Assembly (NCBI RefSeq): GCF_020382885.2
Contig: NC_058501.1
Location: forward strand, 7,998,001 to 8,062,000
From: Scatophagus argus
Taxonomy: Eukaryota; Chordata; Actinopteri; Scatophagidae
Direction: 5' to 3'
Length of the DNA: 64,000 nt
Part shown: one piece after another, positions 6,637 through 61,020 of the stretch
How the letters are laid out: each line of letters starts with the position of its first letter
Numbering within the stretch: position 1 is the stretch's first letter
The notes under the pieces: generated by a model
Told to the model about the DNA's origin: nothing
Databases searched by the model: none
The model's input: only the letters and a program-made list of their open reading frames with translations
Program-made: the position numbers and the translations under genes

Positions 6637-9600
6637 ATGTCCAGTCGGCGAAAGGCCTCCACTCCCTGCATGATCCGACAAGACCAGACCATGGTGGAGC
6701 TGGATGATGAGACAGAGGAGTCACATGGCATGGAGGTACACATGTCTGACATGACCACAAGGCTTTTCTTTAAAAGGGTGAATCAAATAAGCGAAGTTTC
6801 ACATTTCTTTGTGATGGTAACAAAACATTAGAATTGGTTTACAGCTAGTTTTGATAGTATTGTTAGAAATACAGACCCTACATATGTTGTTGTTTTTAGT
6901 GTACAGACATTTTCTAAATTGTGATTTAAAATGGCTATGTTGCACTTTGTCATTTTGATTTATCATAATGTATTGTTTTTCTGTATATTTCACTACATGT
7001 GTCCTGACTTCAGAAGGACTGAATTCATAAATATGTAAGATGGTGCAAACACAACTAATTTGCTGTTGTGTATTTGATATGTACAGGGTTGATAATGCCA
7101 TTACCTTTTAATCTGAAAACTACTTTCTTCCTCTGACAGACAACAATGGAGAACCATACTGAGGAGGGACCTACAGAAGCTGATATCTCTGCAGAGATGG
7201 AACCCTCTGTAGAATTAGACCCTCCCACAGCTCCAGACAAACCAACTACTGAGCCCCCAGACCTATCCAAGCCTCCTCGTAGGCAACAGGGGGGCTACGA
7301 GTGTAAATACTGCCCCTTCTCCACACAGAACCTCAACACTTTCAAAGAGCATGTCGACGCCAACCACCCTAACGTCATCCTCAACCCACTGTACCTGTGT
7401 GCCGTCTGTAACTTCAACACAAAGAAGTTTGACACCCTGACTGAACACAATGAGAGGTGTCACCCAGGGGAGAGCAACTTCAAATTCAAACGCATCAAAA
7501 TGAACAATCAGACAATCTTAGAACAGACAATAGAGGGGTGCAGTAACAATGCAGTCATTTACAACACTTCCAGTACCATTTCTGGCAAAGGGGATGAACT
7601 AGGAACTCTGCCACTTAGCAAACACTCCACAGTGAAGATTGGTAAACCAAAAATAATGCCGTCGGATAATAAACGGACTGAATTGGGTAAACTGACCCCA
7701 GATCTGGCCAAGAAGTCAATCACAGCACTCAATGTGAATGGGACAGTTATCATTCCTGAGTCAACTCTGCTCAAAGCAGATGGCCTTTCTCACATCATGC
7801 CTTCCCTACAGCGGCCTCTAAACTATACCCAGGTAGGACATGCTCTGGAGAAATATGAGGATACTCATTTTCTTTTTTGTATTATTCCTGCATGATTAAA
7901 AGAGTAGTTTGACACTTGGGAAAATACAAATGGTCACCTTATTGCCTTGCATAAAGGCTGGAAGCAGGGTAAAACGGCTGGTCTGGCTCTGTGCAAAATG
8001 TGTAATATGCCCCTACTAATTAACTAATTAATACTAATTAATTTGTTTAGTTAGCACACATTTCCCAAAATGTTGAACTATTTATGATAAACTAGCTCAG
8101 CCTAAAGGCTGGCAGCTGGGAAAAAATCAAGATACATGAGGTGGCTGCAGGTCTTTATTTAACATTTGAGCCGAACTTGTTGTTTTCCCCTTGCTTCCAG
8201 CTTTCATACTAAACTAAGCTAACTTTCTCCAGGTTCTATCTACATATATAATCTACAAACAGGAGAGTGGCTCTTCTCTTCTTACTACCAACAAAAAAGA
8301 AAATTCCTGAAAGAGTCCTTGTTATTATTTAAAAGTGGAAAATTTTGCAATTCGTCAAGTTACTACTTTAATGTTTTGCTGTTAGTGCTTTATTTTATGT
8401 TGATGTAACTTCATAATAATTTCCTAGAAGATACGGTATAATTTAATGGTAATTATAAAGAGAGATGGTTTTCCTCTTGGTGTACTTTTCTAATTCCAGG
8501 CAGTTGCTTAATTACCAGTGCAGAATATGTCGGTCATTGTATGTCACTAAACTTGCAAATAATGTAAAATGTGTCTAGAAGGCAAGAATACAATTCAACA
8601 TATATGCAGAGTAAAGTTACAGATAATTAATCAAATGTGAATTCATATTTACTTGGGTTGAATAGGAGTTCTTTTAAAAAAAAATCAGATTTTCTCCACA
8701 CTTGGCACCAAATTTCATAGTTCTTTTCTGGATTTTCTCTGGATACTATTAGGAAATTACAGACCTGTAAAATATAGTGCCATTACCATTCAGTTTTCTG
8801 CTTTTAGTATTCACCATGTTAACTTATATATTTTACTGTGAACAGAACTATTGCTTGCTCTGTTGTTTCAGGTGCCGAAGATCGCAGTGCCCCTCAACAC
8901 AACCAAATACAACCCTTCGCTGGACGACAACCTGACCCTCATCTCTTCCTTCAACAAGTTCCCCTATCCGACACAGGCTGAGCTTTCCTGGCTCACAGCA
9001 GCCTCAAAACATCCAGAGGAGCAAATCAAAGTCTGGTTCACCACACAGAGACTCAAACAGGGCATTAGCTGGTCTCCCGAGGAGGTAGGATTTATACTAA
9101 TAACAACATTTAAGGCACCCGTTCATTTCCCTCAAGTGTGGTTTAATGTATTTTAATAGGTCTCTGTCAAAACTCAGTCACTCAAATGAGGCAGCAGCTG
9201 GTCTCCCAAAAATGACGTTAAACTGATAATAGAAACTGTATTTCCTGCACACTATGTATGAAATGCTCTTAATAAAAAAGAAAATGAAAGGCTACATTTG
9301 GTGTGAAAAAATGATGCCAGATTCTCCATTCTGAAACATGCAGTTATAGCCTTTTTATTATCTGGTGTAATTTAAAACAGTCAAAATATTAAGAAAAAAT
9401 TATTTTGCTTCTTAAATTGCAGTATATAAAAATCATGTAATTTCATCCAAAACTTAACAACTCGGCTGTTACAGGATTTTGTAATTTTTTAAAAAAACAT
9501 AAAAGCACAAAATATACTTTTCTTTCCATGACAGGTGGAAGAAGCCAGGAAGAAGATGTTCAATGGTACGATCTCCTCTGTGCCTCAGACCTTCACCGTT

Positions 9601-12600
9601 GTGGCTCCTCAGCTCAACTCCCAATCATCCACCAACCTGTCTGCAGCCACTGTGGCCTCCAAATCCATGCAGCCTGGAGCCTCTGTCCTGCAGCCCCTCC
9701 CCTGTCAGCTCCTGGGACAGACCAGCCTGGTGCTGACTCCTGTGGCTAACGGCTCCACTGTCACTTGTGCACCTCTGGCACTCACTGTTGCTAACCAGGT
9801 ACTGAAGATTGGGGTAGAGATGTTCACGTGTGTAGACATGGGAACATGAAGAAAAAGCAGCAGAAAAAAATAGAAGAAAAGCATGCATATAGGTACCATG
9901 CTTGACTTACCTTCAGAGATATGTGATTTGAGTAGTCAGATGTTCCACCGCGTTTTCCACAGGTGGCGCAGTCACTCAAACGACCCCTGGCCTCCCCTGT
10001 GATCGCCACAGAGAGTAAGCGACCCTCCATCATTCAGACCATTTCAGCGCCCATGGCCACATCCAAGCTGGTATCACCCAAAGTGCTGAGTTTCACAGTT
10101 GACCCTAGTAAAACAGCTGAACAGCTATCAGTGCTGAGGTCCAGCTACACGCAGTGTCCTTTCCCTGAGGAAGATGAGGTAAGAATAAGTGAGTGCAATG
10201 ACATTTTTTGTGCCGCATGGATTTTGGGCATTGAGATTTTTGGAGCCACTTTTGCTTTATGCTTTAGTGCTGCTCACCACTGTGACTGATAAGCATGCAC
10301 ACTTACTGTTTCATTTCATGATGCATCTTGTCATGTGATAGATCTACCGGCTGATAGAGACCACTGGGCTGTCCAGAGGAGAGATAAAGAAGTGGTTCAG
10401 TGAACAGAGGCTGCTTAATCTCAAAGGTATATGGTGTTTACTCATGCATCTGTATGTTGGTTTGAAACAAGACAGTTTTAGTTCTGGTGGTTGGTTTTAA
10501 TTTCTAAAACTTTAAAAACAAATGCATACTGAGAACAAATTGTCCTTTTTCACAAACAATAATCTGCTTGTAATGATTTGAAAGCACTGCTTGTGCTGTG
10601 TCCTTAAGCAAATTCTGTTACATCTGTGTGTCTGTTGAAGGCGGTCCTGCACCTCCAGTGCTGGTGAAAGCAGAGGTGCAACAAGCACCAAAAGATGGTC
10701 CCGTAAAGAAAGTGGTGCCCAGCCAGTTCCCCCTGCTGGAGAGGGTAAAGGGGAAATCATCAGAGCAGCTGCAGGCACTAGAGGAGAGTTTCCAAAGGAG
10801 CAGCTCTCCAACAGAGGCAGATTTAGGTAAAGCCTTCTGATTGCCAACTGATTTGGTGTTACCTTGTTCTTATTTTGGTTCATATTGTAAAACAAAAGAG
10901 TGGGGAAAGCATCAAAGTCCCCCACTACTCAGACATGTTTTTTGCTTAATCTTACATTAACAGTTGACTTTACAGTACAGAACAAGACATCTTGTATCCA
11001 GCAGTCAGACTTCTGAAATGGAAAATATTAACATATTCATAGATTTCTGGATTTTCCAATGGGGGAGAAGGAGGAGATGTAATTTCAAGAAGTACTAAGA
11101 ATTATTAAATGTGTTGAAAACCATTTTCACATCCTGATTGCTTATTCATACATTCAGTTATTTTATGTAAATGTATTTCCTGGTCCTAAATTGGACAAGA
11201 CACTCCACCTGCAGATTGGTATGTAGCTAATGAAACACAAAATTGGCCTTCCAGCCACATCTATTTTTAGAGGCTGTTTTTGTTGTGTCGAGTTCTGGAG
11301 GAGAAAGTATTGCAAAACTCTTGAAGTACTTATTTAAAATTCTGTGCCCGATGTTGGACAAATTGGGTGAGAATCAGCCGTTCAAATTAGCAGTGGATGC
11401 TAAAATTACTTAAAGAAGTCCAGTAGTGTTGTCTTCTATTTATACTAGTTCACAGCATGTGATTTCATTTTCTTTCACCCCAAAGGAGCTGCAGGCCCAT
11501 CTCTTGTGGGTGCCTGCATGACAGGAATAGCAGAAATGTTTTTAATGAGCCCATTTTTAAGTCCCCTGGAGAGAGACTGAATTCCCAGGTTTCCGAAAAA
11601 CCTTCCACTTAAACAGGACTCATCTGATTCAGTGAACTCTGTTCTGCTGCAGACCATCTGGCCCAGGAGACCAGGCTGTCCAAGACGGAGGTGGACTGCT
11701 GGTTTTCAGAGCGCAGGGGGCTGAGGGACAACATGGAAAAGGCTTTACTCACTATGGCTTCAAAGAGCACAGAAGACAGAGTAGACCGACCGGGAACGCT
11801 GCTGAATGGGGCTTCGCATCGGGAGCAGGATGGAAAATCTCTACGCTCCCCCCCTCACCCACCTGTCCTCTCTTCTTCCTCCTCCTCATCCTCCCCTCCT
11901 GTGCTAGCAGCCTCCTCTCCTCATCCACCAACCCTCTCCTCCTCTGTGTCACCTCCCATCCTCACTTCATCCTCTTCTTCTTCTCCTCATCCTCCCATCC
12001 TGTCAGCCTCCACGAGCCCAGCCCCCATCAACAGCCGCTCCCTCACCCTGCTCAGAGAGGTAAAGAAAAGCCGATGAAGACATGTCAGCACCAATGATGA
12101 TTACATAAAAACATATTCAAATATGACATGTTGGCACTGTAATGCAAGCAACAATGACATGAAGATAGGTGCTCTTTTAATAGCAGATTAGCTGCAATAG
12201 GCATCAAGACATTAATGAGTCGTGACTTAGATTAGTTGATGAGGTCACACATGTGTAATACAATCTGAAGTGAGATGTTGTGCGAAATTGATTCATTTTG
12301 AGACGGTGTTGTGCTGGTACCTGAGGAAAAGATGTGTGATTGACACTACACAATACTTTAATCTTAAAAGTGAGATAAGACAGCAGGAGACTACAAGGTC
12401 AGATCTGAAAAACCAAAGTGAAAGAGCTGGAGTAGTGTTGTCTGGAAAAGAGTAGTATCCCATAGGATTGCAAAGCCTATAAATGGAACATATATCCACA
12501 TATAACACATTGTACAGACACATCCTGTCTTTAATCATGGCCTATATATTTCAACTACTGAGGGCTAATTTTGAAATCTGACAAACAGAGTCCACCACCC

Positions 12601-14615
12601 ATATTTTAACCCATATTTTGTCCCCAGGTACACAGGCCTCACACATAAACCCACATAGTGCACAAAGATAAATTTTTAGTCTTTTAAACATAATTCTCAA
12701 CTGAATTATTAAAAATGACAGCCAGCCACACTCTGATTCTACTGAGAGTTTCGCGGTTTGGAAAGAATTAACACACAGGAACAAAGCATATGAAAGTAGA
12801 GGAGGCGACTGTTCACAACTGCTTTAATCACACTTTCCATCTATGTAGACAGGATGAAATGTCAGAACATTTTTTAAACAGGACAAAGTCTAGTCTGTAG
12901 CCATGCTAGCAGCTGTACTTAGGCTCAGCTGCGTTTTGAGGCACATACTAACAATAGCAGCATTTAGATCCTTAAGTCTAAGTAGAAATACTGCAATATA
13001 TATGTATATCCTACTAATCCTTCATTTAAAATGTCAGTTGTATGTAAGTGTTGGCAAACAGCATTTTAACTAACTAAAAGTAAATGTAAATATGATTCAG
13101 AAAATTGTAAGCTCATCATATTTTTTGTATTCAAGATCTTAATTTGTAAAGTAACTAGTAGCCAAATAAGAATAAGGTGTAAAGTATATGTATTAAGTAT
13201 ATGTATCTTAATTTTGTATTTAAGTGCAGTAGTTGTCTAAGTAAATGGATTTTGTGAAATTCCATCAGTGAGTGTGTTAGCATGCTAGCATTCACTAATT
13301 AGCACAAAACACAAAGCACAGCTGAGGCTGATGATAATATCATTAGTTCTGAAGGTGTCTAGTCATAAACAAAGAACAATAAAGTTGTTAGGATTCATAC
13401 TCAGGGAGACATACATTCTTGTACCATTTATTCTTCTTATCTGTCCGGTAGTTTAGATATTTCTGCCTGGATCAAAGTGATGAACCAACTAACATTCCTA
13501 CCTCTTGAACTGTGCTGCTAGTATGGTTGAAAAAAGTTCTCAGTAATTGAGCAATTGTACGCACAAGTTATATTTTACTTTTTGCATTAGTCCATCTTTG
13601 ACTTGCCTGTTCTTCAACAGTGAGTTAATTATATGTTTGTAAAATACATTTTTGTTTTAGAAAATGTTAATAACAGGTACTAATCTGTCTTGACAGATGT
13701 TCTGTCGGACTCAGTGGCCATCTCCTGAAGAGTACAGCCAGCTAGAGGTCCAAACAAGCCTGGGACGCACCGACATTGTCCGCTGGTTCAAGGATCACCG
13801 CTCGGCACTGAAGAACGGTGAAACTCTGGACTGGATGGAAGGATTCCAAAACCAAAACCCTGTAGAGCAGCAAAAAACAGGCCAAGAACAGAACGGCCAG
13901 AGTAGTGAGAAAAACCAGAGTCTTTCCTTAGAAGTCAAGGCGGTGACAGGTTAGTTTTGGTGGAGAACATGAAGAAGACTTTCGTTTTAAAGTTGCAGTA
14001 CATCATACCCCCATCTGTTGTTGTGTATGAATCTAATTCTACAACCTCTGATGCAGTTGAGGAGGCTCGTGAGAACACAGCAGCTGTAACAGAGCACTCC
14101 AAGCAGTCCAACCAAGACAAAGTCCAGTGGTTGACTGACAAATTAACCCACAGTGTGACAGACCTGAACCGGACCAGACCAGAGCAGACCACCTCTAGCA
14201 CTACTGACAAAGGGAGGTGGGTGGAGAGAGAGAAAACAGATCTTTTACAGCTCACTGTTAAATTTTTTAAAGGAGTTTTTGTGAAAACAGTCTGTATGGG
14301 GCAATTTGTAGGTGCTGAATTACTCCCTTGCTTGCACCTGTTATTTGTTACATGAACCAGATTTTCATACATATGGCTTATAGCTTTTTCAGAACCATTC
14401 AATGTGCAAAGAAACACGTTCTTTTTTTTCTTTCTTTTTTTGGTTCTGGTTCTTAGAAGTAGCCTGTGTTTAAACCTTGTGCCTGTTTCTTTGCCAGGTG
14501 GGTTAAGGTGACCGTGGAAGTGGGGGAGGAGAGTGAAGAAGCAGTGGAAAGACAGAGGCTGGCAACAGACGCTGATGTTCTGACCTTGGAGCAACATGGG
14601 AGGGTCACTGGTTGA
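6637..14615 (+). CDS. zhx2: Zinc fingers and homeoboxes protein 2 (ZHX2-like transcriptional repressor)
   Basis: Coding exons are 6637-6735, 7140-7832, 8872-9084, 9535-9798, 9963-10178, 10342-10426, 10641-10826, 11653-12059, 13697-13949, 14057-14216 and 14498-14615. All are GT-AG with matching phases and give about 897 aa (human ZHX2 is 837). The start MSSRRKASTPCM is the ZHX family N-terminus. Two C2H2 fingers lie at residues ~88-109 (CKYC...H...H) and ~120-141 (CAVC...H...H). Homeodomain 1 (KVWFTTQRLKQGISWSPEE) is at ~285-340, HD2 (EIKKWFSEQR) at ~460-520, HD3 (EVDCWFSERR) at ~555-610 and HD4 (IVRWFKDHR) at ~720-760. A Ser/Pro-rich run (11860-12050) precedes HD4. ZHX proteins are nuclear repressors that dimerise through the HD1 region and bind NF-YA. 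No HD5-like segment follows HD4. The paralogue choice (zhx2 not zhx3) rests on synteny with derl1 plus HD1/HD4 wording. The last two exons are the least certain. Confidence 0.9.
7900..8340. repeat. Diverged teleost dispersed repeat in zhx2 intron 2
   Basis: The stretch holds the phrases ATAAAGGCTGGAAGCAGGG, GGCTGGTCTGGCTCTGT and TTTCCCAAAATGTTGAACT, which I recognise from a short non-autonomous element common in percomorph introns. A second partial copy of the AAAGGCTGG(A/C)AGC word occurs about 150 bases on (8103-8120). The family name is unknown to me and the ends are approximate. Confidence 0.4.
11866..12020 (+). repeat. zhx2: Pyrimidine-rich simple repeat coding a Ser/Pro tract in zhx2
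   Basis: Imperfect TCC/TCT/CCT repeats in exon 8 code for long runs of Ser and Pro between HD3 and HD4. The tract sits in a linker where ZHX proteins vary most, so it is probably a length-variable spacer. Confidence 0.7.
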
Positions 14616-40330: not shown

Positions 40331-43300
40331 TCACTTCAGCGTCAGGACTTTGTGTCCATCTGTGCTTGATGTTGACCGACCATCACTCTCTAGCACTCCA
40401 GTCAATAAGATCTTGTTCCACCAGCGCTCCCTGAAGTTCTGCACACACATACTGGCCAGACTCTCCCCATCCTGGTAGTCCTCCCTCATCTTCTCTGGGA
40501 TCAGGTCCTCTGACATCACCTGGAAGATGCAAGAGAGAAAAAGTGAGGTTAGCTCAGCCACAAACCAAGGCCGCCCTTGGCTGTCTGAAATTCAGGCCTT
40601 GACACAGCACATATACATAAGATGTCCTCACCTCAGTGAGAGCCTGCAGGGTTGTTTCTTTGGGACTGAGCCGTTGTAATGCTTCGTCTGCCGTCTGCAG
40701 GGCGTTTTCACTGCGCTGCAGCACAAAGGAGGACTGCTGCTGTCGAAGGATTCTCAACAGGAGCCTAACAGAGACATTTACCTTTAAGCTCTTCATAATA
40801 CATTAACATTCAGCTGTGCTGTTCACAGATCACAGATATACCTCGTCCTGATGAAACAGGTGCAAGCTTTCAGCCAGGTTGTTCCCTCTCCGAGCTCTGC
40901 TGCCTCTTCCTGTTGCTCCTCAATCACTCCATCATTCTTCTCCTCAGCTAATTCACCCCTCTGTGAGGAGCACAATCCTAGTGAAGGTAAAGAGAGCAGA
41001 TCACATCAGACCATGGGGACACATCATTTAATTTTCCTCTACGTGGTTAGTCAACAGGTGTCCTACCTGTGGTTCTGTTGCTCTCCAACAGTTGCAGACA
41101 CGTCTGTCCCAGGCTGTACCAGTGCCAGGGGTTAAAAGGCAGCACGCTACACAGCTGCTGCAGTGATGATATCTTGAATCCTATGTCTCCAAAGTGCTGG
41201 TAGATGGCAACCTGCAATTTAGGTTTTAGTCGAATAATAATGTTATTACATGTCCATGGAATTCAGAAATGGAGAAAATTTGTTTATGTGCGTGTTGTGG
41301 TTAATACTGACTTTGAGCAGCAGGAGGCTGGTCAGGTGACACGTGTTGGAGGCTTCTTTGCTCTGGAGAAAGAATATATGTACATTACAGAGTGCTGGCC
41401 TAGACTGATTCCTTATTGTCATTTTACTAAGAAAGAATGTCCATGACAGAGAAAATTTGATTGACTATCTTTAGTGATGTCATTGCTTCACTGATGAAAA
41501 TATTTTCAGGGGTGGTGCTTTCATGTGCTAGTGAGAAACTAATAGACTGTGGAAATGACCTGCACTGGCAGACAATTTGAACCAGAAGGTTTAAATTCTG
41601 GCTTAAATTGGTGGACAATTTTCCATCTCTTCCATTCTTCCATCCATTTTCTATGCCACTTATCCGTGAAGGTTGCAGGTGGGCTGGAGCCTATCCGAGC
41701 TAGCTATGGGTGAGAGGCGGGGTACACCCTGGACTGGTCACCAGTCATTCGGAGAGCCGACACACAAAGACAGATAATCACACACACACTCACACCTAGA
41801 AGCAATGTAGCCAATGCCAATTCACCTAACGTGCATGTTTTTGGGATTGTGGGAGGTACCCGGAGAAAACCCACGCAGGACACGCAAAGTCCACACAGAC
41901 GGACCCAGACCGGGATTTGGAACCCTCTTGCTGTGAGGCGACAGCACTAAGCACAATTTTGAGATTGTTAGTGTAGTTGTCGATGTTAGTTAACTGCTAA
42001 TAGAACAGTTTGTGGCAGTCAAATTCACAGTGTTTTATATAGACCAATTCATTCTATGATAATATAAAACCAGCTTGACTTTTATTCAGCACTTTTTTTT
42101 TTCAGTGAACAAAATAGCTGGCAATGTTATTCATTTTGAGTTTTTCATGAACTGCACGTGATATATAAAGGAGTTCATAACGACAAACAGCAGGTTGTTC
42201 CAGTTCCAGTCACTTGTAGGACACAATGTTCTGCATGGAAAACCTTTCAGGAAACACTCATAGATCAGTTACCAGTAAGGCGACCAAGTCCAGCGCCTTG
42301 TCTCTCTGGCCCAGTTTGGTGCAGCATCGGGCCATTCCCTCCAGTACATCTCTTCTGATGGTCAAGTTGTTGTCAGCGATCCACTCCAGACAGCTGTTGT
42401 ACGCATCCAAGGCTTTCTACTCCCACCACCACATCATGAGAACAGAAACACAACAATGCATTTTGACATTACACAACTCAAAGTGGTCAATGGAAAGAAG
42501 TATGGATGACAGTACTTTAGTTTATGAGCCCCATGCAGCTTCTATTAGCACCATTGGGGGGCAGCCGTGGCCTAGAGGTTGGAGAAGCGGCTTGTGATCG
42601 GAGGGTCACCGGTTCGATTCCCCCACCGGACGGGCAGGAAAAATTTGGGTGTGGTGGAGTGATTAAGAAATGCCCCCCCCTCCATTAGCTGGCTGATGTG
42701 CCCTTGAGCAAGGCACTTAACCCCCACAATATGCTCCGCGGGCGCTTGATGCTGCCCACTGCTCCTGTGTGTGTTTCACTGCATGTAATTTGCCGGGTGT
42801 TGCATGTGTGTGTTCAACTAAGGATGGGATAAATGCAGAAGACGAATTCAGTGTGTGTATGTAAAAATATATATACTGTCAATAAAGATAATTTATTTCC
42901 AGATAATCAAGTACAGCAGACTACAGCTGTATTTAATATTTCAACAATTCAACCTGCTCTTATTTGATGAAGATTTTCACTTTGATGTAGCTAAATGTGC
43001 TTTAAAAAGTCTTTTATCATTCTGTCTGGAAATGGATCATACATTTATGAAGGACAATGAACCAATAGCTTTCATTATTGCCACCAACTTTGCTTGTACT
43101 CTGTCAGCATTACTGAAAAATCACAACAATTATTAAAATTTACAAATGACTGACTAAACTGAATGTCTGTTACCTGGTAGTCCCCCCGTCTCACAGCCAA
43201 GTCACCTCTAAACTTATAGACTTTCTGCTTGTCCAAAGAATCATCTGTATCGAGAGCAGCACTCTGGCAAAACCACTGCAGAGAGAAACAAGAGGACAGA

Positions 43301-52000: not shown

Positions 52001-52215
52001 AGTAAATAAGTAGCTAAAGCTAATAGTTCATCTGTCAGTCTCATGAAGACGTGATTCAGAAAAAGGTTGAAAAAACTGTAAATTAATGTTGCAGATGAGT
52101 ACACATGCAAATCAGTGGCAAAAAAACTTGGTTTAGTGAACTGTCCTCCAGCATTAATCACGCCTGTAAATCTCTTGTAACATTCTGTAACGTTTCACTT
52201 CGCTTCACACAATCA
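46082..52215. other. zhx1: zhx1 3' UTR and/or 3' flank
   Basis: About 6 kb of AT-rich DNA lies to the left of the zhx1 stop codon. It contains no spliced or domain-bearing frame. Several minus-strand AATAAA signals occur (for example TTTATT on + at 46413-46418), so the zhx1 3' UTR could be anything up to 5.8 kb. An 84-codon minus frame at 51147-51401 has no homology I can see. No repeat family was recognised here, which is unusual for this window. Confidence 0.4.
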
Positions 52216-55200
52216 TTAGTCTTCAGAAACTGACAAGGATTTCCTGACGCTACGTGACGGTTCCCAAACCTCACTGTCATCCGTATCATCTCCATCATCT
52301 TCTTCATCTCCTTCATCCTCATCCTCATCCGCCATCCCCGTGCCGCTCTGCTCCTCGGTGGTGGACGCTTCTCCCTGCCTGTCCGCTCCGTCTTCTTCTC
52401 CTCCTTCGTCTCGGTCTGTCACAGTCAACTCCTGGAAGGGATCCAACCCCGAGTCCACACGTCGCTGGACCTCAGCAAACCACTCCCTCACCTTTTGATG
52501 GAGACAAAGAGACAGATGAATGGTCTACTGAGAGCAGGGATGAAGCTATCAAGGAAGACACAGATATCACATTCTCTGTGAAATTTCTTGGAGCTCAGAC
52601 TGATTTATCTGATGAAGGACTGAAGCATTTTTTATAAATCGAGTACAAATGATGGACATTGTGTGGGTCTTTTTGGTTCTTTCACACAGTCAAAGCACCT
52701 GTCCATAGGACTTTCTGAGGGGCAAATCTGCTACTGGGTTTTAATGATGAATGGCTGTTCTAGGCAAAAAATAAAATAAACAGATCAAACTGATTTACTT
52801 CAGTATTTCTAACATCCTGACTAAGGTCCATGTTTCATGGCAATGATACATTTTAGGACTTAAAAGTGTTTTCTATGAACACACTTGTCTTGGTGCTGCA
52901 GATAATGCCGAACTTGCTTAATGTGGCATAAAAAGCTCAATGTGGAAGAATCAGTCCAACTTTTCAGCTTGCTGCCGCTTATATTTCATGTTACTGGGTA
53001 TAAGTCAGTTTAAGAAAGTAAACCTTGAATGATTTAGCTGCTGCGTCGGGCTGGTGTTATTCTTATGCTTTAGTTATGTTTCGTATACATACCTCTGTCG
53101 TGTACTGACAATGTAATTCTTATTATTAGTATGAAGCCCTGTAACTATAAAGCCTTTTGAAATAAATTTGTGACTTTGTGCTGAATAGAAAAAAATTGAC
53201 TTTACAATGTAAGTAACTTTAAAACAAAATACACACCACAAATTAAAAGAGAATATACAGAAAATGAAAAGAAAGTACTACAGCATATTGGCTAAAATCC
53301 ATGAATATATTTGGGAAAAGATGGAAATGGGGACAATGAGACAATGTGTCGATGTGACTTTAGTTTGATTCTCTTATTTCTTAATTTAAATGTTATGACT
53401 TATTGTGCATACCCTAACATTTAACAGAGAGTTGGTTATTTATATAGTTGGTGGTTATGATAAAAAGCATCAGGTTAAAAATGAACAAAAACAACAAAAA
53501 CTTCAATGAAACATGTAGCTTGAGGTCACACCTGCTTTCTAAGAAAGCCTTCTATGAGTAGGTAGGGAGCACTCTAAGGAAGCAGGGCCCTGACTGACAG
53601 GTCAGAAGATCACATCCTAATAAAACAAAACCTTTTATTACCTGTTCATAGCTCATGTTGGTCTTGGTGACAAGCTCATCCAGGTCTTGCTCATTGAGAA
53701 AGCGGTGTTTCAGGTAGTACTCCTTCAAAATCTCTCTCCCGCTCTTGTATTTCTTTGTCGGGGGAGATCTGTTGATGTCTGCACTGAAAGAGGCTGACCT
53801 TCTTGGCTGTTTTCTGGTTCGGGATCGACCCCAGCCACGATTTCGGGCACGTCTTTTTCGACCAATGCTGCTGCTGCTTCCTATTTTATTGCCTCCTCCA
53901 CCATTTGGCCCTTCGATGTTGCCACTTTGGTACTGGAAGAACCACTTCAGGTTACTGTTCTTCCACGAGTACCGAGAGTCCCCGAACCAGCTGACAATGT
54001 AGGAACGCGGAAGGCCGCTTTCTTCTGCCAGCTGGTCATACTCCTCCGGCGTAGGCCACTGGGTCCGCACAAAGGCACTTTTCAGAATATGGAGCTGCTC
54101 CGGAGTCTTTTTACTCTTATCTTTCACATCTCTGTTGCTGCTGCTAGCCAGTTGCTTACTGCGACCACCGGGAGGAGTTTGACTACCTTTTCGGGATGAG
54201 GAGGCAGAAGGAGAAGAAGAGCTGGCTCCTGTTCCCCCTTCTCCTGCTTTTGCTCCATCTGTCTCCATCTTTCCTCCCTCTAAAGAATCCGGGGAGGATG
54301 TGTTGACAGATGGCATTTTTCGTCTCTCGGTGAACCATGCATCAATCTCCCTCCGCGTCAGTTTAGTCTCTGTCCTCAGGCGGCTCAGTTCTTCATCAGA
54401 TGGGGTGCTGCTCTTCTCAAAACTTTCCTCCAACACCACCAACTGCTCGGGTGTCTTCTCCTTAAACTTCTGCAGGGTGAAATCTGGAAATGGATTCCAT
54501 GTTTTGGGTCGAGTCTCTTTCTCTTTCACAGGAGGGGTGCGTGGAGGAAGGGGAGATGTGGGGGTCTCATCGCTTGAGTCAATAACAATGGTGGTACTAG
54601 CACTGCTACTGCAGCTGCCACTTCCTCTGCTCCCTCCCTCATGGAAAACAATGACATGGCTGTTCTTGGAGTTGCGCTGATTGTACCTGGTGTCGCTAAA
54701 CCACTTCTTTATCTCTCCCTTTGTCAGGTTGGTGAGTTTCATAAGCCGAGCAATTTCTGCATCAGTGACAAAATGGTTTTTCAGGTAGCTGGCTTTCAGC
54801 TCTGCCAGCTGCTCTTTGGACTTCTTGGGCCGCAAACTGAATGTATCGGCACTGAGAGCCGAGTTCTCCTTAGAAAGGGAAGGGAGAGTTATGTATTAAA
54901 TAAAGGTTTCTGCAGTGCCATTGGGCACCCAGTGGTACCAAATACCTGCTAGGAAAAAGACAAAAAGATAACCAGAGAGATGTGAGCAATTTCAGGTGCA
55001 TTGCGTGTAACTAATTGATGGGAAACTCTGTACGGCCTAAGGTTAAAAAAAAAAAAATGAATAAACTTTCTTGTTGTTGAGAGCACAAGAGTAACATTAA
55101 TATTTATCATTAAGGCATTAACAAGTGTTGTCCCCACCTGTGGAGAAAGAGAGGGAGGCTGAACAAGGGTTGCCCGTTTCAGCTCACTGTTTGTCGGGGT

Positions 55201-58054
55201 GGGCGGGCAGGAAACTCTGCTGGAGCTCTGGGACTGAGTGGGCAGCCCTGCCACTGTCAGAGTGATTGGACTGGTCACTGGAAGGTTCCCCCCTGGGCCA
55301 ACCTACACAAAGTCAGAAAATAATGACAGACTGTGAGGATGAAACATAAAGCCACACAGGAATAGTTATTTTGTTTAAACCAACTGCGGTTGTTATTTGT
55401 AACACATGAGCGTATGGAAAGGGTCATAAAATTGGTTTTCACTGGTGTGTAATTTCTGTGCTGTATTGGTGTATTTGTGCCACTGTTTTTGGCTACAAGC
55501 AAACTACAAGTAAACCCATAATTTATGGCATGGTCTGGGAGACTGTTGTCATTAAAATTATATGATCTCTATCAAGAAAAAAAAGGGAAGCATTTCTTCA
55601 GCACATGACCTAAAGAAATGACCTGTTACATCACAGAGAGCCTTTTGTTGTTAAGGTGACAACATTGTTTCTATTGCTTGGTTCTAATGCAAGGCCATTA
55701 AAATTAAATTAGAGAGATTTCACAAAATACCAGACATGTCTGCTGAGATTGAGATCTGATATTTTACCTTGTATAAGCTGTTAAAACATTTTGAAAATGT
55801 TGTAAAAGATTCTTTGGCAAATATTTACAACACGTTCATAAAAACACCATTAAAAAATTAAAAGGGAAACAAACGCGATATTTATTTTCAGGGCTCCTGG
55901 AACGCACTGATTTATTTGTTACTGCCTTTTTAAACTGATTGAATATATCTGAAGCAAGCTGACAGACAAAGTGAGCAGGATAAATTCATGTCTTATCCAT
56001 GTCAAATTAAAACTGGTTAAATAAAGGCAAAGTGAATCAAGCTGTTTAAAGTCAAATTAATCAAATCATTTCAACCCATGCTGAGTCGTGCCAAATGAGA
56101 CCAGCTAAACCACAGACTAATCAAACCAAACTGTGTAATCCAAGTTAGATTAGACCAAATTAAAGCATTCAAAGCATAACATTCCGAGCCATACCAGTGT
56201 CAAGTTCAAGGTAAGACGGGTTAAAGTTGAGTCTGGTTAGAGACGGCGTATTGTCTTTCCTTACCTACCTGTGTGAACACCAGGCCGGGCTGGCCCACTA
56301 TCTGGCAGGTTTGAAGAATGGACTGCAGGCCATTAGCAGCAGCTGAGAGTTGGTGAGCAGGTATGACAGTGATGGTCTGAGGCACAGTGTGCACGGTACC
56401 ATTAAACTGCTTCCTCCTGGCCTCCTCCACTTCCTCTGGAGTCCAGCTCACACCATGTTTCAGGCGCTGTGCTGAGAACCACACCTGGGTGTAGATCAAG
56501 TACATTTTACTCTACTGTTTAGAAAATGTGAAAAATAAAAGCAATATTTTGTAGATTTCAAAATTTAATTTTAAATTGAAATTGAGGTTTTTGCTTAATA
56601 AAACATACAGGATAAGGAGCTTCTACTCAGACTTTTCTGAGCTAAACTTGTCTTATTAAAGAAAAACTGAAAACACAACATCCTTTGTGAGCGCAGGTAA
56701 TCTACCCCAAACAACTTTCATCTACCTTGATTTGCTCCTCTGTAAACTGTGTCTGTGCTGCCAGGCTGCTGATCTCAGCCATGGAGGGGTAAGGGAACTT
56801 CTTGTATGTGCTTCCTAGCAGGGCGTTGGTGTCCATAGCTGCACTATAGGAGGGGATGCTGCTGAGGGGAATCAGTAGCTGAGGCTGAGCTGCTGCTGCT
56901 GCTGCTGCAGTATGCTGGGCCTGAAAAGCAGAAAGCACCTGAAATAAAGAAAGAAGAGAAGAACATAAGAAAGGACTGGACTGATAATGCAAAGGTGAGA
57001 CTGCAAAGTCTGTTTGGCAAACTGCAAAGTGTTTCTGAACAAGACAATGGATATTTAACAGCTGAGGATCTGCTGTTCTGTAGGTCAAATTGACATCAAA
57101 CTGTCTAATGAGGGTATTGAACATTACTGCAGGGCATTATCCAAGGCCTACCAGCCGTTTCAGTGTGTCTAAAAACATATATTCATTTTTCACAGATAGG
57201 GATAAATGTATTCTTACATCCATGCAGCTCCCATGCGTCACCTAAATCCTTGTATTATCAACACTACCTACCTGTGCCAGGCCAGCAGGCAGAACTGTGG
57301 GGTTTAAGGTAGATGATTTCCTCTGTTGTTCTGAGGGCGGGCTGACCAGCAAGCCACCTCCTCCGAGCTTCATAGAGTCATGCAGCAGCATCTCCATAGG
57401 TGTCATAGGTCCCAGAGGAGCTTCAATGGGCTCTTGCTCTCCTCCTCCAACATCTCCCTCACCGCCCCCTCCAAAACTCTCCCCCACCTCATCTGCTGAT
57501 TTCAGAGACACGGCAATCCTCTTGGGTTCAGATTTGGTCTTCATCCTCATGATGGGGGTCTTGCTGAGAGAAATGGCAGCAACCGTGGCAGGGTCTGCTC
57601 CTCCCTCCTCAGGTGTATCACACTGTTGTTCCTGTGTTGGCTGGTCACAGCCTGGATCCTCAGGAGGGTTTGTAGCACTGCGCTTCAGTGACGGACTGAG
57701 GACTTTGCGGTCTTCTGCAGTAGAGACACTTGGTTCATCTATGATTGTGATAATATTATAACAGATATTTCCAATGTCATTTCCAATAATTCACGTATAA
57801 AGTTCCACTGTGATCTTATCATGGAAGAATGGGCCAAGAAGGATCTTACCTGTATCTGGAGGGGTGGGAACAACCACTACTGCCTGATCCAGCTCCTCTG
57901 CAGTCAGAACCTCTTCAGTTCCCTCCTTCACATCCCCCTTCTCTTCTGCCTCTTCCTCCTTTGTCCTTTCTGTTTTCTCCTCCACCTCTTCTTGTTCCAC
58001 CACATCAGAGGGCAGCACCATGCAAGGTGTGGTTGATTTTCGACGGCTTGACAT
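52216..58054 (-). CDS. zhx1: Zinc fingers and homeoboxes protein 1, lacking the zinc fingers
   Basis: Minus-strand exons in order are 57850-58054, 57272-57738, 56726-56938, 56269-56484, 55138-55302, 53642-54868 and 52216-52491. Phases agree and give 922 aa (human 873). The start [14 protein letters not shown] is ZHX1-specific. An acidic Glu-rich stretch (residues ~18-50) follows, then [11 protein letters not shown] and KRIAVSLKS (residues ~115-140), which in human lie just after the zinc fingers. No C2H2 finger is coded anywhere between. Homeodomains are HD1 ([19 protein letters not shown]) at ~245-315, HD2 ([16 protein letters not shown]) at ~434-490, HD3 ([12 protein letters not shown]) at ~550-610, HD4 ([15 protein letters not shown]) at ~673-730 and HD5 ([13 protein letters not shown]) at ~798-850. 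An acidic C-terminus ends [13 protein letters not shown]2-HD4 share one 1227-nt exon, while HD1 and HD5 are each split by an intron. It should act as a nuclear repressor that dimerises with other ZHX proteins. Confidence 0.93.
56888..56912 (-). repeat. zhx1: (GCT)n repeat coding a poly-Ala tract in zhx1
   Basis: CTG/GCT triplets on + read as GCA/GCC-type codons on -, giving seven Ala in [12 protein letters not shown] just before HD1. Such tracts tend to vary in length between alleles. Confidence 0.85.
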
Positions 58055-58073
58055 TGTCAAACTCTGTTTATGT
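58055..58073 (-). other. zhx1: 5' UTR segment of the first coding exon of zhx1
   Basis: The acceptor ccctgcgcag at 58074-58075 (minus) leaves 19 bases of leader before the ATG at 58052-58054. The 5' intron then runs to the donor at 59277-59278. Confidence 0.55.
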
Positions 58074-59278
58074 CTGCGCAGGGTAAAGAAGATCTGAGAC
58101 AGAAGTGTTGAGGCTCACATCCCTTAGGTTGCTGCGTTCACATGCTAGAGTCCTTGAATTTTGTATTTCTGGTGAGGGAAATATGACAAATATGAAAATT
58201 CCGTATGTGTGATTTGTCACCAAAAAAGTAAAACTGAATACCTTTAGGATTTATGACTCACTTAGAAAACTAAGACATTTTAAACTTTTGTGTTTTATGG
58301 CAAGCAACTATTACAAGACTAAACAAAAACTTTAAATAATAGCCGTCAGATTTATTATAAAAGATGTTTTGCTGCTTTTTCCTGTTTTATTGTTACATCC
58401 TAATTTTGAGTACAGTTGAACAGCTTTGAACTGTTGGTCAGACACAACAAACTATTTCAAGGCTTGTCCTTGTGCTCTGGTAAACTGTGAAGGCCATTTT
58501 TCACTTTTACTTTATTTGCATAGTATGTATAACAGATTTTTTTAAAATCATAACTCGATACATTCCATAAAAAACTACTGTACTGTAGTACTGAACTGTG
58601 GCCAAGCCCACATTCAAACGTTCTAGTCCACTTAATTCACAACATGTTGGACTGTATCACATGATAAACCCACATAAAAAACAGTTTATGGGTCTTAAAC
58701 AACACCAGCAGGGCCCAAATAAAATCACCAATTCAGTCGACACCGGGATGTAATTAATATTTTCTTAACTACACAACTGGCACACATTGTCTAGTTACTG
58801 CAAATATTTGATTTCAATTTCCATGTATGTCTTTGTGTCAAAGATGATCCCTTACGGCATTTCATGGTTTAATTTGATACCGCCTCATTTACGACAAGGT
58901 CACACTTACTGGCAGAAGTATAGCATATACTGCCTATAAGACACCATTGCAATATACCTGAGGTCAACTGCTCATCACTTACCGCCGGTAAAGTCTGTTA
59001 AATAGACTGCATACTGTTAACAATAACTAACTATGTACGGTATGCTGTGCTGCCCTGCCATCAGGATATAATTTGCATTAACTGTTAGCACCTCAATAAT
59101 AATTTGGAGGCGTGAGCTAGCTAATTCGATATTATTAAAGTAACGTTAAACCAATAAATCAACATAAAAGGATCTCTAACTTAGCTCTGCAGTATATAGC
59201 ATATATATGAAGTGGGCCAACTAGCTAGTGTTAGCCGGAGCGGTCATTATTATTGATCATGTCTGGCGGTAAACTTAC

Positions 59279-59560
59279 TGGAACTACTGAAATGTGCACG
59301 GTGTTGCTACCAGGCTGTCGAGAAGAGGCGAGAAGTAATTTCCTGAGTCTTTGCAGAGCAGCCTTCAGCGTCTCTCCTTCCCCCTGCTAACCATTCAGCC
59401 CCAGCCTGGACGGGACTACAGCAGCGTTAACGTTATTTGGGCTTGCGGGTCTCCCAAACCCAGCGGAGGGAGGCAGACAGAGATATAGACGAACCGGTCT
59501 AACGGCTACGGCCCCCGTCTGAAGATGCTGGAAACACCGGACATCTCTCTCATCGTCGGA
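59279..59560 (-). other. zhx1: Probable non-coding first exon of zhx1
   Basis: A strong donor (TTCCA|gtaagttt on -, 59278/59279) follows a GC-richer stretch with several CpGs. The 5' end is not defined and is set roughly at 59560. Confidence 0.4.
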
Positions 59561-59739
59561 GCAGGTTATATTGTGCCCAGGTTGCGTCTTTGTAAGAGTT
59601 GTACAATCAAAAACGCGGCAGTTACATTAATAACGTGGCCGTTTATACCGTGTTAGTTTGCTGACCTAATTCTCTATTTTTTTTTAACGGCTGATTTTTT
59701 TAATGATCAAACGGCGTCATCATTCAATGTGATGCGTAC

Positions 59740-59747
59740 TGACGTCA
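59740..59747. promoter_or_regulatory. zhx1: Full palindromic CRE, TGACGTCA, upstream of zhx1
   Basis: An exact 8-base CREB/ATF site about 200 bases upstream of the presumed zhx1 first exon, in a CpG-containing stretch. The position fits a proximal promoter element. Confidence 0.5.
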
Positions 59748-60394
59748 TTCCTCGGCGACTCTCGGTGCTCTAACAATTTTGGTAACTTAGCAAAAAATAA
59801 ACAATATTTTATCATTACCTTATACTGTACATTAGTTGGATTCAATGCCTTGTCACGAAAAGGGGCGTTTATTTAATTGTTGAAAGCAGGCCGTAAACTC
59901 ATGCGTTTCCCTACCGGCTGTGTGCCAATGTGTCCTTACATGACCTGTCAGGGCAGTATGAAAAGCTACTTGAGGACAACGCTGATATTGCCAAGTTCCC
60001 TTTCAGTTTCTCTTAGGTTTCTTTTCAGGCTTCTCTGTTGATTAACCCACAACTACTATATTTTATGATAAACTGCTACCTTGCTATACATTAATACCTT
60101 AGCGATAATAAAAGACGAGCTGAGTTTAAAGGTGCATGGTAATTTTGTAATAAAAATATGTTTGTATCACCCTACTTCGGTTTAAAATTACTACCACAAA
60201 AGACCAACAAATGCCAAAAGATCACTTGCTATTACTAGGGTGTACAGTTAAAAAAGCCAATGGCTCAAAGACATTAAGATAGAAACAACTTGAGACAAGG
60301 AAGCAGTGTATGGCTGGAAAATCACTGTGGGGTCCACACGCACGAAAATTAAACAGGGCAAACCTTGTATAAGCAGCAATTACAGATAGTGATG

Positions 60395-60410
60395 TTTATT
60401 CCACTTTATT
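60395..60410 (-). terminator. atad2: Paired polyadenylation signals, possible atad2 3' end
   Basis: Two TTTATT words on + (60395-60400 and 60405-60410) read as two AATAAA signals on -. This would give atad2 a 3' UTR of about 600 bases. Confidence 0.35.
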
Positions 60411-61020
60411 ATAAAAAAGGATCATCTGCAGAACTTTAAAGGCTGATTTCCTGTAACTTTGTATTGCACTTATGAAATGGGGGATTTTTGGAAACAGATT
60501 AAAACAGATAAGATGATCAGATGATTCAGTAGATAGCAGATAGTGTCTGTAAAATGGGTTAGAACTCAAACCTGGCTCCACTCTTCCCCTATAGTGACAT
60601 GATTGTATTCTTTGTTAGACCCTCTGTTTAGCAAGTAAATGCTAAATGCACATCTTCCTAATTTCAGTCTAGACTTCAATCAACAATTCAGCAATTCTGT
60701 TTTTTTTCCAAGCAGAAGGTGCATAAAGAACTACTGGGGAAAATGTGTAGCAGTGAAAACCTGGACTTTAAAGTCATACTTTGATATGATTCATCACAAA
60801 CTGAAAACTGTAAATCTTACGTACACAAAAAACACACAATGATATTTAGTGGAAAATCATTTAATTAAATATAACAAGGTAATACAAAGAATCAGCTAAT
60901 GCACAAAGAGGTCCTTGGAGGTTTCTATTAAAATAGAATCAGTGTTTGTATATTTACACAACTAAAATAATGAGAGTAATTAATCATTTAGAAATGGTCA
61001 TACTTTTTTCTGTAGAAATG

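Follow-up and report, generated by a model that had tools for sequence, protein, structure and literature searches.

The window, as the whole analysed stretch of 64,000 nucleotides of Scatophagus argus DNA is called here, contains no N and carries copies of zhx2 and zhx1, together with an ATAD2 gene. In a hand-built model, zhx1 occupies positions 58054-52216 of the minus strand and consists of seven coding exons that are separated by GT-AG introns and encode 922 aa in one open frame. Coding exon 1 (57850..58054, 205 bp) comprises 68 codons followed by a phase 1 end and encodes an N-terminal peptide, 13 of 15 residues of which are identical to the zhx1 copy on contig C17, and an acidic stretch. 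Intron 1 (57739..57849, 111 bp, GT-AG, 32% GC) has the donor site ACAG/GTAAGA and the acceptor site CAATCATAG/ATG (a slash marks the splice point), and is situated at the position of the two C2H2 fingers in other zhx genes; were it left unspliced, a stop codon would end the frame at 87 aa. Coding exon 2 (57272..57738, 467 bp) encodes about 56 residues, the similarity of which to ZHX fingers is not above chance, and then the post-finger motif SLSKTPIM...KRIAVSLK. Homeodomain 1 is divided between coding exons 3 (56726..56938, first part) and 4 (56269..56484, remainder), and exon 5 (55138..55302) encodes a linker. Exon 6 (53642..54868) contains homeodomains 2, 3 and 4 and the start of homeodomain 5, while exon 7 (52216..52491) contains the remainder of homeodomain 5, an acidic region, a C-terminal WEP tail and the stop codon. 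The names zhx1a and zhx1b were coined in this analysis, zhx1b being the window copy.

The zhx2 gene of the window, located on contig C9 like zhx1b and oriented forwards, served as a same-window control. Both of its C2H2 fingers were confirmed in the single coding exon 7140..7832, as stated by an earlier sequence-only reading of the window, but a further N-terminal coding exon (6637..6735, MSSRRKASTPCM...), unmentioned there, is located upstream. Hence, the start of the zhx2 protein is not in 7140-7832. The ORF over the upstream exon matches the N-terminus of the zhx2 copy on C17.

The zhx1b protein was searched for fingers in several ways. Pfam models revealed no zinc finger in it at E up to 0.1, and residues 1-224 contain three cysteines and one histidine. 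The C2H2 pattern is absent from the protein and present two times in all five other zhx proteins. The window as a whole, translated in six frames, contains the pattern 15 times, including the two zhx2 fingers; on the zhx1 strand between 52213 and 61020 there are none, the single occurrence in that interval being on the opposite strand. The tblastn comparison of four finger pairs with the window gave hits below E 0.01 in zhx2 alone (the best remaining match, at 29259-29140, had an E of 0.02), and the three matches within 52213-61020 all had E values of 1.5 or worse.

Shuffle tests were applied to the sequence around the junction. The N-terminal motif and SLSKTPIM are separated by 112 residues, which aligned to the C17 zhx1 fingers with a score of 28, equalled by 680 of 2000 shuffles, and with four other finger pairs the score was equalled by 917 to 1877 of 2000 shuffles. 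In the controls, ten finger-to-finger comparisons scored 107-421, and none of 500 shuffles reached the score in any of them. Translations of intron 1 in three frames, compared with two finger pairs, gave in these six tests a best result of 20 in 1000 shuffles, which is non-significant after correction; the intron DNA compared with finger CDS gave a score equalled by 504 of 1000 shuffles. Finger remnants in intron 1 or exon 2 were rejected by these tests. Decayed fingers at the ends of exons 1 and 2, as suggested by a global alignment that matched these ends to finger 1, are likewise unsupported by the shuffle test.

The sequence-only reading had described zhx1 as a gene in which a 111-bp intron joins the phase-1 exon to the post-finger exon, with all five homeodomains kept and no finger remnant between the two exons. 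The junction is borne out by the GT-AG sites and the open frame, the homeodomains by five PF00046 stretches found with Pfam and the absence of a remnant by the Pfam, motif, tblastn and alignment tests. Its statement that the fingers were replaced by the intron stands as regards the position, but the intron has no detectable finger trace. The gene at 58054-52216 is zhx1 by descent and, lacking the two C2H2 fingers, does not encode a complete ZHX protein.

A second zhx1 gene is located on C17. Its model has six coding exons and 965 aa and includes both fingers. Exon 1 encodes finger 1 and one half of finger 2, which is completed by exon 2. The intron inside finger 2 (L007:2325-2877, phase 2) is absent from the four other fingered zhx genes of the genome. 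The fingers match the human ZHX1 finger structure 2ghf at 141 bits. The Pfam ZHX finger model scores 62.5 bits on this copy and 67.2 bits on a 423-aa part of the window zhx2, and Pfam assigns four homeodomain stretches to the C17 protein, plus the Homez model on the fifth.

A ZHX-finger model covering finger 2 and its extension was searched against the whole genome of 570.7 Mb with an E threshold of 0.001. Five places were found, namely zhx1 on C17, zhx2 on C9 (in the window) and C17 and zhx3 on C8 and C3; zhx1, zhx2 and zhx3 are each present in two copies in the genome. When the first 282 aa of the C17 zhx1, which include both fingers, were compared with the genome, 19 matches were obtained up to E 10. 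Seven of them belong to other zhx genes, and ten are weak matches (E 0.086 to 8.8) located on different contigs or at a great distance. The two matches in zhx1b involve residues 1-53 (E 1.67) and 168-278 (E 0.0015) of the query, leaving the finger residues unmatched. The genome search with the N-terminal half of the C17 zhx1 matched zhx1b exon 2 at 57281-57607 only. A finger exon for zhx1b elsewhere in the genome, for which the sequence-only reading had proposed a search outside the locus, was rejected, all five places at E up to 0.001 being in other zhx genes. The same reading had considered it probable that the fingers were lost from zhx1 in this lineage; this holds for the window copy, but the genome still has a fingered zhx1. 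Since the C17 zhx1 keeps both fingers, the loss is confined to one duplicate.

The relationship between the two zhx1 copies was assessed by gene order and phylogeny. Blocks comprising an ATAD2-like gene, zhx1 and zhx2 are arranged in the same order on C9 and C17, as in ohnologs, and in the C17 stretch 1080001-1153000 (73 kb) the orientation is also that of the window. The C17 ATAD2-like gene has AAA and bromodomain matches in Pfam. The window ATAD2 was identified by visual inspection. Pfam gave no match for its C-terminal ORF, which is joined to C17 by one 65-residue match with 48% identity. No match to the ORFs that separate zhx2 from zhx1 in the window was found in the 73-kb stretch of C17, apart from a repeat-like segment about 150 bp long near window position 42.7 kb. 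This segment (window 42688-42878, C17:1088871-1089016) matches in several frames and both directions, is located at the end of the C17 ATAD2-like region and may represent either a repeat or conserved non-coding sequence. ATAD2, ZHX1 and ZHX2 are also reported together in Atlantic salmon (PMC2846915). In the tree, the zhx1 pair is supported at 100/100 with six rows and at 94/93 after the addition of a 560-aa part of a homez candidate. The window gene zhx1b is one of two zhx1 duplicates, which, judging from the gene order and the paired zhx copies, very probably originated from the teleost genome duplication. Pattern scans of collections of genome contigs and of viral contigs for relatives gave 188 and 3 matches, respectively, none of which was confirmed.

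We consider it likely that zhx1b is a duplicate that lost its fingers. The fingers might instead be supplied by an alternative exon, or a finger exon between 57738 and 57850 might be missing from the assembly. As the intron inside finger 2 of the C17 copy demonstrates, the zhx family does include finger exons that are split; however, the ends joined here have GT-AG sites and matching phase in a window free of N, and neither the zhx1 strand around the gene nor the genome-wide search at E up to 0.001 offers a candidate exon, making this alternative highly improbable. That the window gene is the finger-less relative homez and not zhx1 has almost no probability. HOMEZ is described as a ZHX relative without zinc fingers (PMC2211742), the Pfam Homez model matches the fifth homeodomain of zhx1b at 36.7 bits and, in a seven-row tree, the homez row, which is long, adjoins the zhx1 pair weakly (75/78). 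However, the Homez model is stronger on the fingered C17 zhx1 (52.8 bits), the best PDB matches of the window gene are the human ZHX1 homeodomains 3nar and 2ly9 (112 and 94 bits, against 61.5 for Homez 2ecc), and the gene groups with the C17 zhx1 and has zhx1 neighbours. A separate homez candidate was found on C13 (L018, C13:18122067-18122210) in an open frame of 674 aa. Its 560-aa part, starting in the first homeodomain, contains no C2H2 pattern, and the ZHX-finger model has no place on C13 at E up to 0.001. The homez identity of the window gene was rejected on the basis of the PDB scores, the tree and the C13 candidate.

It is also very unlikely that zhx1b is a decaying duplicate in which finger loss was one step toward a pseudogene. 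The zhx1b branch is longer than that of the C17 copy (0.78 vs. 0.28 over all columns, many of which are loosely aligned), and the finger region is 31% identical between the copies, again in a loose alignment. Against decay stand 922 open codons in seven exons with GT-AG introns, an ordered C-terminal tail and the homeodomains, which in zhx1b are 77, 75, 87, 84 and 68% identical (homeodomains 1-5) to those of the C17 copy. For each homeodomain, the two zhx1 copies have about equal scores against zhx3 and zhx2. In comparison with human ZHX1 structures, homeodomain 4 scores 112 bits in both copies, homeodomain 2 scores 94 in zhx1b and 72 in the C17 copy, and homeodomain 3 scores 75 and 84, respectively. 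With homeodomains conserved to about the same degree as in the fingered copy, zhx1b does not have the appearance of a decaying gene; the comparison points to no general decay of the homeodomains and to faster change in other parts.

The loss of fingers from zhx1b appears to accompany a turnover of coding introns. Six coding introns were modelled in zhx1 on C9, five in zhx1 on C17, eight in zhx2 on C9 and two in zhx3 on C8, the last two models being partial. No coding intron interrupts the 1027-codon open frame of the zhx2 copy on C17 or the 909-codon open frame of the zhx3 copy on C3. Among the 21 modelled introns of the four zhx genes (window 6637-13949 and 52216-58054; L007; L009; L010; L011), one position is plainly common, PEE/VEEAR, shared by zhx1 on C17 and zhx2 on C9; none of the 11 coding introns modelled in the two zhx1 copies has a position common to both. 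Immediately ahead of homeodomain 1, zhx1 and zhx2 on C9 and zhx3 on C8 each have a phase-0 intron; these three might represent one position, the linker being loosely aligned, so repeated intron gain is the simpler but not the sole history of the zhx introns. Human ZHX1 and ZHX3 presumably have a single coding exon each. Human ZHX2 is described as having a single coding exon (PMC9718504), and the gain of coding introns is documented in ray-finned fish, e.g., in slc26a1 and slc26a2 (PMC12357937; see also PMC3151243).

With no detectable finger trace in the intron, both deletion and exon-to-intron conversion are possible as routes of the loss. Conversion is a sub-case of the explanation we prefer, deletion being the alternative route; splice sites would have arisen around the finger codons, which then decayed within the new intron. 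The distance from the start codon to the post-finger motif, 483 bp in the genomic DNA of zhx1b vs. 537 bp in the coding sequence of the C17 zhx1, is consistent with conversion, and so are the differences in the other coding introns between copies of the zhx family. However, the intron keeps no finger similarity, the length match could be due to chance, and deletion with a separate intron gain fits equally well. We therefore put conversion forward only tentatively.

The proposed explanation is that the finger module of zhx1b was dispensable, since the C17 zhx1, zhx2 and zhx3 would still supply fingers. The finger codons would have left the mRNA by deletion or exon-to-intron conversion, during the turnover of coding introns. 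Human ZHX1 is reported to dimerize by the homeodomain 1 region (aa 272-432) and to repress by an acidic region (aa 831-873), with dimerization needed for full repression (PMC9570228), and dimerization by homeodomain 1 is described across the ZHX family (PMC2893186). The homeodomain 1 region and the acidic C-terminus are both present in the zhx1b sequence; hence, zhx1b may be a dimerizing repressor without fingers. The protein would still pair with ZHX proteins by homeodomain 1 and repress by its acidic C-terminus, while bringing no fingers to the dimer. Mixed dimers would then make fewer finger-dependent contacts, and homeodomain-dependent repression at NF-Y-type targets would continue. Altered partners, suggested in the earlier reading, may likewise be expected of the finger-less protein. 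For ZHX2, a review notes that direct DNA binding still needs study (PMC9718504). The functional part of this explanation is perhaps correct, with the chances about even.

The C-termini of the two zhx1 copies also differ. The window copy terminates in the WEP tail. In the C17 model this tail is lacking, and the protein closes with a long stretch of very acidic sequence (L007:6922-7362); WEP triplets occur three times in the three forward frames of C17:1090001-1120000, none of them followed by a window-type tail. Human ZHX1 is, as we assume, terminated by a tail similar to that of zhx1b, and on this assumption the WEP tail would be ancestral. A reciprocal loss is conceivable but rather doubtful, in which zhx1b dropped the finger module as the intron arose, while in the C17 copy the fingers were kept and the WEP tail at the C-terminal end of the repressor region disappeared. 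This scenario would apply only if the last exon of the C17 gene is in the model and the human tail is as we assume. If true, it would represent domain-level subfunctionalization coupled to coding-intron turnover, and ZHX dimers would have none, one or two finger pairs.

Among the titles and abstract openings found in the literature, there was no study of fish zhx1 fingers; the absence of fingers in the ZHX family is itself already known from the description of HOMEZ (PMC2211742). The presence in one genome of two zhx1 genes with similar homeodomains, with and without fingers, offers a natural experiment on the role of ZHX fingers. Many coding introns differ here between the copies of the zhx family, and the finding that a whole domain is missing where a small intron is located is relevant to the question of how proteins are remodelled by intron turnover once a genome has been duplicated.

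The closest known parallel for the introns is the gain of coding introns in teleosts, for example in slc26a1 and slc26a2; in both cases, introns restricted to a lineage interrupt coding exons in ray-finned fish. The zhx1b intron differs in being located at the site of a missing domain, whereas the gains, as presented in the part of that report drawn on here, are not tied to domain loss (PMC12357937). HOMEZ resembles zhx1b in having ZHX-family homeodomains without fingers, which is a shared absence and not a matter of descent; it is a distinct gene, with its candidate on C13, and represents a separate instance of finger absence. Human ZHX1 and zhx1b are alike in the N-terminal peptide, the post-finger SKTPIM motif, the homeodomains, the acidic C-terminus and the neighbouring ATAD2 and ZHX2, and differ in that zhx1b is devoid of both C2H2 fingers and of the extension C-terminal to them and has an intron at the finger position.
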